Of a stretch of DNA of 64,000 nucleotides, positions 42,386 to 46,960 are shown piece after piece. Each line of letters opens with the position of its first letter. Within the stretch, counting starts at the first letter, position 1. The translations under genes and the position numbers were made by a program. Where the stretch lies: contig JANWYV010000004.1 of assembly GCA_025055075.1 (NCBI GenBank), forward strand, positions 62,001 to 126,000. Reading direction: 5' to 3'. The DNA comes from Blastocatellia bacterium. Lineage in GTDB: Bacteria > Acidobacteriota > Blastocatellia > HR10. The notes under the pieces were generated by a model. That model searched no databases. It was not told the origin of the DNA and was given only the letters and a program-made list of their open reading frames with translations.

Positions 42386-43332
42386 TCTTAGCGGCGGGCT
42401 TGGGCACGCGACTGTGGCCCTTGACGGCCGATCGCGCTAAAGCCGCCGTCCCATTCCTCAACAAGCCGATCATCGTTCGCCTCATCGAGTATCTGAAGCA
42501 CTACGGGTTCACCGACGTGATCATCAACCTTCATCACCAAGGGGAGTCCATCCGTCGCGTCGTCGGCGATGGCTCGGCTTGGGGCGTGCGCGTCTTCTAT
42601 TCGGAGGAACCGGAGATTCTGGGGACGGGCGGCGCGCTGGACAAAGTCCGTCATTTGCTCCAGGACGAGACGTTTCTCGTCATCAACGGCAAGATCATCA
42701 CCGATATTGACCTGCATGCCGTGTGCGACGCCCACCGGCGACGTGCCGCCTTGGCGACGCTCGTGCTCATGAAGAATCTGCAGCGCGAGCGCTTCAGCAT
42801 CGTCGAAGTGGACGGCGATGGGAAGATCGTGCGCTTCGGCGGAATGCCCTCTCCCCAGGAGATGCCGGGCGATCACGCGCCATTGCTCTTCACAGGCATT
42901 CAAGTCGTCGAGCCGGAGATCTTCGACTTCATTCCGCGCGGCGTGTTCTCGCATACGACCATGGACGTCTATCCGCGCGCCATCGCATCCGGACAATGCA
43001 TCGCTGCCTATATCGCCGAAGGCCAGTGGTACGAACTGAGCACATTAGAGCGCTACTTGAACGCGAGTCTCGCCTTCCTCCGCCGCGAAGGAAGATCCTT
43101 CATCGCTGGCGAGGGAACAGTCATCGAAGATGACGCAGAGGTGAGGGAAAGCGTCCTCTGGGAGCGCGTTCGCATCGGGCGAGGGGCACGCTTGCGGCAG
43201 TGCATCATCGGCGACGACGTGACGATCCCTCCAGGAAGCGATCTCGAGCGCGTCGCCGTTGTTCGCGCCGCCTTATGCCCATCCCCTTCGGCGGGAACGA
43301 TCGTGGGTCAGAACCTTCTTGTCCCGTTCTGA
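42373..43332 (+). CDS. NDP-sugar pyrophosphorylase (mannose/glucose-1-phosphate nucleotidyltransferase type)
   Basis: A 319-residue protein. The N-terminal Rossmann domain has MILAAGLGTRLWPLTADRAK with the GxGTRLxPLT..KP loop continued as PFLNKP; FLVINGKIITDID carries the metal-binding Asp region and FTGIQVVEPEIFD follows. After residue 240 short hexapeptide-like repeats suggest a truncated left-handed helix (IEDDAEVRESVLWERVRIG). It makes a nucleotide sugar, probably for surface glycans such as those built by the glycosyltransferases at the left end. Overlap with the CYTH gene implies joint expression. Confidence 0.88.
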   Translation: MRAMILAAGLGTRLWPLTADRAKAAVPFLNKPIIVRLIEYLKHYGFTDVIINLHHQGESIRRVVGDGSAWGVRVFYSEEPEILGTGGALDKVRHLLQDETFLVINGKIITDIDLHAVCDAHRRRAALATLVLMKNLQRERFSIVEVDGDGKIVRFGGMPSPQEMPGDHAPLLFTGIQVVEPEIFDFIPRGVFSHTTMDVYPRAIASGQCIAAYIAEGQWYELSTLERYLNASLAFLRREGRSFIAGEGTVIEDDAEVRESVLWERVRIGRGARLRQCIIGDDVTIPPGSDLERVAVVRAALCPSPSAGTIVGQNLLVPF

Positions 43333-43411
43333 GGACGCCCGCGCTAACCCTTCGGCTCATCACGAACTTCCACATTTTCGCATAAAAATTCGAGATTTCG
43401 GCCACCCATCT

Positions 43412-43425
43412 TCCAGAATCCTGGA
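43412..43425 (+). promoter_or_regulatory. Inverted repeat, candidate activator site for sigma-54 promoter
   Basis: TCCAG-AATC-CTGGA is a five-base-pair inverted repeat centred about 103 bases upstream of the -24 box, the usual distance of enhancer-binding-protein sites. A further GGAATTTCC palindrome lies next to it. The link to the promoter is inferred from position only. Confidence 0.3.
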
Positions 43426-43520
43426 GGGAATTTCCGAAGCCTCGGAGATTCGGTCCTGGTCCGCCCGCGTCCTTTTCAGCTAACTCCCTGAGAAGCCGTG
43501 AGAAAGGAAATAGAGGGTTT

Positions 43521-43536
43521 TGGCACGCCGCTTGCT
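43521..43536 (+). promoter_or_regulatory. Near-perfect sigma-54 (RpoN) promoter
   Basis: TTGGCACGCCGCTTGCTT matches the RpoN consensus YTGGCACGrNNNTTGCW at nearly every position: GG at 43522-43523, ten bases, GC at 43534-43535. Transcription should begin near 43547, immediately before a strong hairpin, 60 bases upstream of the TonB receptor ATG. Confidence 0.8.
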
Positions 43537-43548
43537 TAAAAAGCATGC

Positions 43549-43572
43549 GGTTGCCTCCCGCAGGAGGCAACC
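43549..43572 (+). other. Hairpin at the predicted 5' end of receptor mRNA
   Basis: GGTTGCCTCC, loop CGCA, GGAGGCAACC: a perfect ten-base-pair stem that would start about two bases from the RNA 5' end and leave the GGAGGT ribosome site free. Such 5' stems can protect mRNA from RNase E-type decay; that role is an inference. Confidence 0.6.
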
Positions 43573-43605
43573 CGACTTCGAGAAGGTAGAGAAGGAGGTG
43601 GCGAT

Positions 43606-46600
43606 ATGAGACGACTCGCTGCGTTCGCGCTCATCGCGAGCTTGCTCTGGACTTTCGGGGCGAGCCTCGCGGGTGCTCAAACGATCTTGGGATCCATCTC
43701 CGGTGTCGTGACGGATCCCCGAGGCGATCCCATCCAAGGGGCGACGGTCACGATCAAGAACGAGGACACGGGATTGACGCGCGTCCTGACGACGAACGAG
43801 ACGGGATTTTATCGTGCGGATTCGCTCCCGATCGGAGAGAACTACACGATTACCGTCGAAAATCCTGGATTCAAGAAGGAGGTTCGCACGAAGATCGCTG
43901 TGCGCGCGGTGGCCATTACGCGCGTGGACATTCAACTCCAGGTGGGGGAGATCGCGGAAGTCGTGGAGGTGACGGCGACAGCGGCCGAGCTGCTCGAACG
44001 CACGGAAGCACGAGTGGCGAAGTCTATTGAAAGCCGGCAGGTCTTCGAGCTACCCGGGCGCAATACGCTGACGGGCTTGGCGTTGTTGGTTCCCGGGACG
44101 GTTCCGAATATCCCCGGTATGCCCGGCTCCGGCTTCGCCACCAGCGGCGGACGTTCCCGTTCGAACAACTTCAATTTGGATGGCTCGAACAACAATGACG
44201 ACTCGCTCTCGATCCCGCGTCAGACGGTTCCTCCTGAGGCGATCGCTGAATTTCAGATTGTGACGAACAACTTCAATGCGGAGCAAGGGCGCAATTCCGG
44301 AGCCGTCATCAACGTCATCACCAAGTCGGGGACGAACGAATACCACGGAACGTTGCACTGGACGTGGGCGGGCAACGGGTTGAACGCTCTGACCCTGCAG
44401 CAGGAGCGCGTATATCGAGGAGCCTTGCAGCAAGGTCTGCCTAAGCATCAAGCGTTGCGCTCAGCGAAGAATCCGACTGTGGATAACCTCGGAGGGTTCA
44501 CAATCGGCGGTCCGATCATCCGGGAGAAGACCTTCTTCTTCGGATCTTACGACTTCGACCTGTTCCGCAGCACGATCGGATCGGCCGCGCGCAATGCGAT
44601 CACGCGCGAAGGGCTGGACCTCATTCGAGCGAATGCCGCGGCTCAAGGGTTCCGACCGGAGGCGATCGATTTCCTTGCCAATACGTTCCCCGTAGCCAAT
44701 GACTTCTCGACCCGATTCAACGTGAACGTGGCGGCGCCTGGACAACCGGCGCTGTTGATTCCCTTCGCCCGTTTCAATCGCGGAGCTGTCGAGACGCTCA
44801 AGTACGATACGAACTTCCATCGGTTCCTGGCGCGGCTCGATCATCGCTTCGGCGAGAAGGATCAGATTTTCGGCCGTTACCTCTTCGACGACAGCGACGA
44901 TCCGGGGACACCGGCCTCGCTGCGCGGACAGGAGATCGGCACGGCCGTGCGGAACCAGAGCTTGACACTCGTTCACACGCACGTCTTCTCGCCGCGCGCG
45001 GTGAATGAATTCCGCTTCGCCTATAATCGCCGGGCCATCACGTTCCCCTTGGGCGAGACGGTGCGCCGCTTCGGGGCGTTCTCCGTCGGTGGGGTAGGAG
45101 GCGCCTTCACCCTCGGGAACGTCAACTTCCCGCAGTTCCGCACCGACAACATCTACCAATACGCGAACAAGTACACGTTCACGTTCGGGCGCCATTCGCT
45201 GCGAGCGGGCGTGGACATTCGTCGCGTGCAGTTGAACTCCTTCTTCGCGCCGGTCGTGGATGGGCAGGTGACGTATCCGAACCTGCGCGCCTTCCTGCGC
45301 GACGAGAACGCGACGTTCAACCAGTATGCCGGCGAAGCCTATGTTCCCAGCCGGTTGACCGAACTGGGCGCGTTCATCCAGGATGATCTCCGGCTCACGC
45401 CAACCTTGACCCTCAATCTGGGCCTCCGCTACGAATACACGGGGACGCCCTTCAACTACTTCTCGAATGCGAAGCCGGACATCAACAACTGGGGACCGCG
45501 CTTCGGGTTCGCCTGGAATCCGAAGACCGAGCGGACGGGATTCTGGGGATGGCTCACTGGTGGCGACAAGCTCGTGATTCGTGGTGGCTACTCGCTCACC
45601 TATGATCAGATCTTCCAGAACATCCTGCTCAACACCTCGCGGAACTACCCACGTGGTGTGCAAGTGGCGCTCGGCCCGATCTCTGGTCAGCGGCTCTTCT
45701 TGCGCAGCAACTGGCCTTCGCCGCCAACACCTCAGGACTTCGTGCGCTTGGGCGGAAATCCCGACTTGTTGCCGTATCGGTACTTCTCCCTCAACAAGCG
45801 CGTCAGCCAGCCCTACACGAACCAATACAGCCTGACGCTACAACGGCAGTTCCTCAACGATTACGTCATTAGCATCGGCTACGTCGGCACGCGCGCGCTC
45901 AAGCTGGTCCGCGAATACGAGACCAACATCGGCTTCTTCAAGGCTGCAGTGGATCGCAATCCGTCCGCGTATCAGAGCGTCCTGCCCTTCCTGCAGTTGA
46001 CCACGCGAGGGGGACAGCCTGTGTACCTGAGGGATCCGGCGCGCGGGTCCATCCTGGTCGGCGATGGGCATGCGCAATCCTGGTATAACTCGCTGCAGGT
46101 CTCCGTGGACAAGCGCCTGAGCCGCGGGCTGCAATTCGGCGCCGCTTACACCTACTCCAGTTACATCAGCACGAGCGATGACATCCTGGGAGCCTGGCTG
46201 GCTCAAACGCTGCCGGCCAACCCCATCAATGCGCGATTGGATCGCGGTCGCTCGATCTACGATCGCCCGCATCGGTTCGTGATCAACTACGTGTGGGATA
46301 TCCCGGGCTATAAGGGCGAGAGCGGATTCCTGCGGCAGACGCTCTCGGGATGGCGCCTCTCCGGAATCACCACGTTCCAGTCGGGGACGCCGTACTCGGT
46401 CTTCAACAACAACAACGCGCTCGGCATCCTGCCCGGGCAGATCACCACGATCGCCTTCTCGCAACGCGTCTCGATCAATCCGGGTGGAGATCCTCTGCTC
46501 GTCACGGGTGTTGGCGCGGATGGGCGTCCGCTCAACCCGAACGCCTACTGGATCGTCCCCGGGACGAACTCGGGGATCGTGGGGAACTCCGGGCGGAACC

Positions 46601-46869
46601 GCTTCCGGACCGAGGGTGTGAACAACTTCGACATGGCGCTGGTGAAGGAGATCCGGATCACCGAGAGCCAGAACCTGCAAATCCGATGGGAAGTCTTCAA
46701 CGTCTTCAACCATCGCCAGTTCATCTATCCGCCGCCCAACTTCCTGTCGGAGACGACACTGGTGGGGCCGACGCAGCCGGATCTGAACCTCGGATGGTCG
46801 CATCTGGGGTTGACCGGCGCGACGCCTGGCGGCCGGAGCATGATCTTCACCGTGCGGTATAACTTCTGA
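43606..46869 (+). CDS. Oar-like TonB-dependent outer-membrane receptor
   Basis: A 1087-residue outer-membrane protein. A signal peptide (AAFALIASLLWTFGASLAGA) is followed by a carboxypeptidase-regulatory-like domain at about 25-105 (GSISGVVTDPRGDPIQGATV), a plug region (GFATSGGRSRSNNFNLDGSN, EFQIVTNNFNAEQGRNSGAV), then a large beta-barrel (NAKPDINNWGPRFGFAWNP), ending in an aromatic MIFTVRYNF as outer-membrane barrels do. This architecture is abundant in Acidobacteriota and related to myxobacterial Oar. It probably imports large substrates such as oligosaccharides or peptides. AAGGAGGT precedes the ATG. The sigma-54 promoter suggests inducible expression by an activator not found here. Confidence 0.92.
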   Translation: MRRLAAFALIASLLWTFGASLAGAQTILGSISGVVTDPRGDPIQGATVTIKNEDTGLTRVLTTNETGFYRADSLPIGENYTITVENPGFKKEVRTKIAVRAVAITRVDIQLQVGEIAEVVEVTATAAELLERTEARVAKSIESRQVFELPGRNTLTGLALLVPGTVPNIPGMPGSGFATSGGRSRSNNFNLDGSNNNDDSLSIPRQTVPPEAIAEFQIVTNNFNAEQGRNSGAVINVITKSGTNEYHGTLHWTWAGNGLNALTLQQERVYRGALQQGLPKHQALRSAKNPTVDNLGGFTIGGPIIREKTFFFGSYDFDLFRSTIGSAARNAITREGLDLIRANAAAQGFRPEAIDFLANTFPVANDFSTRFNVNVAAPGQPALLIPFARFNRGAVETLKYDTNFHRFLARLDHRFGEKDQIFGRYLFDDSDDPGTPASLRGQEIGTAVRNQSLTLVHTHVFSPRAVNEFRFAYNRRAITFPLGETVRRFGAFSVGGVGGAFTLGNVNFPQFRTDNIYQYANKYTFTFGRHSLRAGVDIRRVQLNSFFAPVVDGQVTYPNLRAFLRDENATFNQYAGEAYVPSRLTELGAFIQDDLRLTPTLTLNLGLRYEYTGTPFNYFSNAKPDINNWGPRFGFAWNPKTERTGFWGWLTGGDKLVIRGGYSLTYDQIFQNILLNTSRNYPRGVQVALGPISGQRLFLRSNWPSPPTPQDFVRLGGNPDLLPYRYFSLNKRVSQPYTNQYSLTLQRQFLNDYVISIGYVGTRALKLVREYETNIGFFKAAVDRNPSAYQSVLPFLQLTTRGGQPVYLRDPARGSILVGDGHAQSWYNSLQVSVDKRLSRGLQFGAAYTYSSYISTSDDILGAWLAQTLPANPINARLDRGRSIYDRPHRFVINYVWDIPGYKGESGFLRQTLSGWRLSGITTFQSGTPYSVFNNNNALGILPGQITTIAFSQRVSINPGGDPLLVTGVGADGRPLNPNAYWIVPGTNSGIVGNSGRNRFRTEGVNNFDMALVKEIRITESQNLQIRWEVFNVFNHRQFIYPPPNFLSETTLVGPTQPDLNLGWSHLGLTGATPGGRSMIFTVRYNF

Positions 46870-46877
46870 AACACAAG

Positions 46878-46960
46878 GAGGCCCGGCTTGCGATGCCGGG
46901 CCTCGAAGGTCAAAAGAAGCGAGGGGCATCGTGACCCCCTCGCTTCTTTTCTTTTTTCCC
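46878..46960 (+). terminator. Tandem hairpin intrinsic terminator
   Basis: A first hairpin GAGGCCCGGC/GCCGGGCCTC (46878-46904) lies nine bases after the receptor stop. A second, 15-base-pair stem (46912-46926 with 46936-46950) is followed by TTTTCTTTTTT, a classical plus-strand terminator. The complement gives a TTTT tract too, so it may also stop the convergent cox transcript. Confidence 0.85.

Follow-up and report, generated by a model that had tools for sequence, protein, structure and literature searches.

What controls the gene for an Oar-like outer-membrane receptor in this Blastocatellia genome, given that Acidobacteriota carry dozens of such receptors? The gene lies in the window (the whole 64,000-nt stretch of DNA analyzed, numbered from its first letter). 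The region in front of it (43400–43605) very probably holds a sigma-54 promoter served by a tandem enhancer, from which an activator of the NtrC type would switch on the receptor; the resulting mRNA is predicted to begin with a 5′ hairpin. Ascending along the plus strand, the elements are the following.

43369–43402, no strand assigned: degenerate dyad-like block, TCCACATTTTCGCA ... TTCGAGATTTCGGC, with invariant columns in the six-orthologue alignment
43412–43425, no strand assigned: upstream dyad 1, TCCAGAATCCTGGA (TCCAG-N4-CTGGA), predicted activator site, conserved in five genus and family orthologues
43433–43446, no strand assigned: upstream dyad 2, TCCGAAGCCTCGGA, starting 21 bp after the start of dyad 1, conserved in the orthologue alignment
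43520–43537, plus strand: sigma-54 –24/–12 promoter, TTGGCACGCCGCTTGCTT, with GG at 43522–43523 and GC at 43534–43535, exact N10
43547, plus strand: transcription start predicted from sigma-54 promoter geometry, 12 nt past C43535
43549–43572, plus strand: 5′-terminal mRNA hairpin, perfect 10-bp stem with loop CGCA, the stem beginning two bases past the predicted start
43592–43599, plus strand: ribosome-binding site AAGGAGGT, a block invariant in the orthologue alignment
43606–46869, plus strand: Oar-like outer-membrane receptor of 1087 aa, with a CarboxypepD_reg domain and a barrel of the TonB-dependent-transporter type

The promoter matches the pattern TGGCACGN4TTGCW at 12 of 12 positions and is conserved in orthologues, bearing out the original prediction of a near-ideal RpoN consensus with exact GG-N10-GC spacing. 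It is the sole perfect match within the window and one of eight in the genome (3.02 Mb), each of which is followed by a start codon ∼50–230 nt downstream as judged by eye. The chance rate of a 12/12 site is ∼0.0005 per 300 nt on one strand, where background rates are drawn from eleven 20-kb genome stretches and the window. With up to one mismatch there are 29 sites genome-wide against 33 for the reversed-pattern control. There is thus no enrichment and the motif alone is not proof, so that conservation and the operator must decide. The same comparison is what could suggest a chance match, with the receptor gene driven by an unseen promoter. This is very improbable, as GGCAC and TTGC are invariant across six aligned orthologous upstream regions, the site is perfectly associated with the dyad (see below), and a search over 43300–43700 found no sigma-70-type promoter. 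The sigma-54 promoter in front of the receptor gene is therefore almost certainly real, judged from these sequence comparisons. The genome encodes rpoN (PF04552, E 5e-56) and ten sigma-54 activators with strong AAA+ matches (PF00158). Perfect sigma-54 sites lacking dyads (near position 1501 of L002, L005 and L007) precede TatA-like, hemerythrin-like and small CxxCH genes as assigned by eye, and other activators therefore probably serve other genes.

An inverted repeat ∼100 bases upstream had been taken as the kind of site that an enhancer-binding activator would use. It proves to be the first of two conserved dyads, located ∼95 nt before the –24 element, and the operon of a candidate activator carries the same operator. 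The operator is a tandem of 14-bp dyads with the consensus TCCRRANNYYYGGA and a spacing of 21 bp. Taken singly, the 5-bp palindrome at 43412–43425 would count for little, which is not so of the tandem. The block at 43369–43402 possibly comprises two further weak sites, its likeness to the dyads being judged by eye. The distances from dyad pair to –24 element fall into clusters of 63–67, 73–79, 88–92, 97–101 and 142–143 bp. Taking one value for each of 23 orthologue groups (the grouping is our own), these are phased at ∼11 bp (R = 0.73, Rayleigh p ∼5e-6), and jittered controls with the period scanned likewise reached the observed value in 0 of 5000 trials. Helical phasing of this kind is what contact between activator and polymerase by looping requires. 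Between operator and promoter lies a TAACTCCTTGA-like block (43478–43492) that is conserved in all six orthologues, and a protein that bends DNA, or some additional factor, may act there.

The scan of other Oar-like receptors for sigma-54 sites that had been proposed reveals a shared arrangement. The genome has 33 listed Oar-like receptors, six of which carry both dyads together with a sigma-54 site scoring 10–12/12; the upstream regions of the other 27 were read, and have neither. This perfect association (6/6 vs 0/27) would arise once in 1.1 million by counting. Searched with up to two mismatches, the tandem dyad occurs at seven places in the 3.0-Mb genome (reversed control, 0), six of them in front of Oar-like receptors and one in front of a histidine kinase gene. 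The predicted regulon would then consist of six Oar-like receptors and a two-component operon. When the six members are mapped onto a tree of all 33 receptors, five changes are required, where shuffled labels need 5.6 on average. The members are thus grouped no better than shuffled labels would be, and the promoter has therefore been gained or lost repeatedly. A single recent duplication as the source of the common promoter is unsupported by this scatter. The orthologue of the window receptor in G006 (86% identical; upstream region L121) has neither sigma-54 site nor dyads, its promoter having apparently been replaced, and the receptors of G008 and G009 that are closest to a non-member of this genome carry the promoter.

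The seventh tandem site leads into the two-component operon, located on contig C15.

C15:5346–5380: tandem dyad before the kinase gene, with its own sigma-54 site CGGAACGCCACTTGCT
C15:2322–5255, minus strand: histidine kinase gene, multiple transmembrane segments
C15:840–2255, after the kinase gene: NtrC-type response regulator gene

The kinase comprises a PDZ-like stretch (below the Pfam cut-off), ∼eight hydrophobic segments, and PAS, HisKA and HATPase domains. The 471-aa regulator has a receiver domain, an AAA+ domain with GAFTGA and a Fis-type helix–turn–helix (HTH_8), the make-up of an NtrC-type enhancer-binding response regulator. Among the named NCBIfam equivalogs listed, neither protein reaches a curated cut-off. 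The regulator scores 431 bits for NtrC (cut-off 558.6), 472 for AtoC (714), 385.5 for ZraR (760) and 379 for PrsR (502.6), and the kinase 105 for PrsK (300). In the whole-genome search this operon is the sole activator locus with a tandem dyad. Cognate activators are ordinarily recognized by an autoregulated operon bearing the operator that its targets also carry, and for this reason we infer that the regulator acts at the dyads, a pairing supported by autoregulation and co-conservation. Immediately upstream of the kinase gene lies a gene for a CarboxypepD_reg protein of 608 aa (L156:5445–7271, on C15), which matches a barrel weakly. A homologue occupies this position in 27 of 36 kinase loci, making the protein a candidate for the signal input.

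The kinase is present in 117 of the 118 Blastocatellia genomes searched. By a search with the kinase, the closest named relatives are HRbin08 and HRbin10 (hot-spring bins) and other uncultured Blastocatellia, which places the organism among the uncultured acidobacteria of that lineage. Paired dyads 18–21 bp apart together with a sigma-54 site are found in 21 of 30 kinase promoters tested (shuffles, 0/6000), and an orthologue of the activator (67–84%) in 13 of 13 genomes tested. These data bear on whether the promoter and dyads might be real and yet served by another of the ten sigma-54 activators, there being nine full ones besides that proposed. In several genomes the activator gene does not adjoin the kinase gene; it was not found there in 16 of 36 kinase loci, some of which are cut by contig ends. 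A different activator is nevertheless unlikely, considering that among activator loci the kinase–activator operon alone has the tandem dyad, that dyads and kinase remain together throughout the class, and that none of the genomes tested lacks the activator orthologue. The regulator encoded at C15:840–2255 is thus the preferred candidate.

Tandem sites were found in 19 of 39 genomes, mostly five to eight per genome within the genus and family. Forty were fetched from relatives; 34 lie before an Oar-like receptor and three before a kinase gene, these 37 having sigma-54 scores of 9–12/12, and the remaining three have no gene assigned. An exact search for tandems with 4–6 bp spacers in the 118 genomes of the class gave 11 loci, with none in the reversed control; the kinase gene follows at five of them and an Oar-like receptor at six, two of the 11 being identified from the analyses of kinase promoters and receptor upstream regions. 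In other classes the kinase (∼36–42% identity) and activator (∼48–54%) persist, and many kinase genes are preceded by sigma-54-like sites, usually without recognizable dyads. Receptor upstream regions score ≥9 in 14 of 19 cases inside the class and in 3 of 30 outside it, the latter with one good site and close to the background rate. With the dyads usually absent and the receptors mostly without sigma-54 sites in other classes, the regulon as described is a feature of Blastocatellia, and sigma-54 control of Oar-like receptors throughout the phylum is rejected. Activator-gated expression had been envisaged for the very numerous receptors of Acidobacteriota. The comparisons favor it for six of the 33 receptors in this genome; they do not extend it to the phylum, since only those six are in the regulon and the receptors tested outside Blastocatellia mostly lack the promoter.

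The coincidence of the predicted start with a perfect 10-bp stem, which had also been remarked upon, is present and is retained in evolution. Folding of nucleotides +1 to +74 gives –27.5 kcal/mol (z = –2) and the first 45 nt give z = –2.9; in the sampled genome sequence, perfect 10-bp hairpins number ∼0.035 per kb. A hairpin is found in all six genus and family orthologues, its stem beginning at +1 to +3. The comparison covers just these six sequences, and in G002 the hairpin is no more stable than shuffles (z = –0.9). The inverted repeat at 43549–43572 could alternatively act as DNA, a repressor operator that overlaps the start, since a perfect 24-bp dyad just downstream of a predicted start also resembles an operator. 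However, the stem differs in sequence in every orthologue while the pairing is kept, through double changes (C-G to T-A twice between the window and G001) and G-U pairs, and the sequence is repeated nowhere else among the fetched loci. Stems that are changed and yet re-paired favor an RNA structure, and a DNA operator is accordingly quite unlikely. Pairing at the 5′ terminus slows the decay of mRNA (review PMC3997798). By analogy with such pairing in other bacterial mRNAs, the most likely role of the hairpin is protection and stabilization of the message. The C24:60481 group and one G005 member likewise have strong 5′ hairpins; several member mRNAs have one and many do not, and the hairpin is thus not a general trait of the regulon. 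A switch in which CCTCC of the 5′ arm pairs with the ribosome-binding site is not conserved in the orthologues on inspection. The hairpin is also flagged as a terminator of minus-strand transcription; this reading is not favored, as the minus strand shows no evident gene there and a gap parts the T run from the stem.

A search of Rfam returned no family at threshold, and the only weak match was the narK RNA (RF03032). The window is not a member of this family (16.3 bits against a gathering score of 43.2, E 0.96). The RF03032 consensus begins with GGCaCAgcucUUGCU, which is GG-N10-GC, and a hairpin follows just downstream, the same layout as window 43522–43586. The narK RNA family may thus be a sigma-54 promoter plus a 5′ hairpin, and not RNA throughout.

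The product of the regulated gene has matches above cut-off to PF13620 and PF25183, corresponding to the N-terminal CarboxypepD_reg domain and the outer-membrane barrel. An AlphaFold model (pLDDT 70, pTM 0.70) finds its best PDB matches in the TonB-dependent transporters YddB (6ofr), FusA (4zgv) and PirA, with E down to 5e-30. The model thus indicates a TonB-dependent transporter fold. The match covers the plug region at moderate confidence only; a sequence search for a Pfam plug domain in the receptor gave no family at E≤2, and a sequence search for a solved relative found none. Beyond the gene, between it and the convergent molybdenum hydroxylase genes, is a strong 10-bp hairpin with a T-rich tail on the minus strand (46878–46904), possibly a shared terminator.

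The promoter, operator, their co-occurrence and conservation, the phasing, the conservation of the hairpin and the transporter fold were all obtained by computation. From them we infer the start site, the direction of regulation, the function of the hairpin and the pairing of activator with operator, which would fit together as follows. The kinase (C15:2322–5255) would phosphorylate its dedicated NtrC-type regulator, which would bind the two dyads, located 63–143 bp ahead of the –24 element and, across the regulon, with a favored helical phasing. The bound regulator would remodel sigma-54 RNA polymerase and so turn on the Oar-like receptor, the tandem site before the kinase gene providing autoregulation of the circuit. 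The transcript would start at ∼43547 and open with the hairpin, which most likely protects it. More tentatively, and with the balance somewhat against it, the circuit may be a conserved one of Blastocatellia that senses the envelope. The small outer-membrane CarboxypepD_reg protein encoded upstream would signal to the periplasmic PDZ-like domain of the kinase, and through the activator to the operator-bearing receptors, repertoires of which would be re-wired by gain or loss of one tandem site.

The case falls within the known type of sigma-54/activator regulon. It shares with those of NtrC, AtoC and ZraR the –24/–12 promoter, an activator with receiver, AAA+ (GAFTGA) and Fis-type domains, a paired kinase, tandem upstream dyads, helical phasing and (predicted here) autoregulation. 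It differs in its operator, in having Oar-like receptors as targets, and in an activator falling below the cut-offs of these and other named equivalogs. PrsK and PrsR of the XrtA/PEP-CTERM system are a membrane kinase and a sigma-54 response regulator that govern exported envelope proteins. The present pair resembles them in this respect, but both proteins fall below the cut-offs and the kinase has the N-terminal PDZ-like stretch. Francke et al. 2011 (PMC3162934) proposed that sigma-54 controls the bacterial exterior; the envelope targets are alike, and TonB receptors and Acidobacteria are not mentioned there. A 2025 survey (PMC12316311) likewise has envelope genes as targets and names TonB itself in Flavobacteriia, unconfirmed, without mention of Acidobacteria. 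In the open-licence literature we found no earlier report of this two-component system or of Oar-like receptors being controlled by sigma-54, and no paper assigning a regulator to any Acidobacteriota Oar-like receptor.

The locus offers an example of a receptor regulon built up piece by piece on distant paralogues, and a possible re-reading of the Rfam narK RNA. For one class the analysis supplies the promoter and operator, a candidate activator and a defined list of targets, which allows a direct search for the signal and thereby for what the receptors do.
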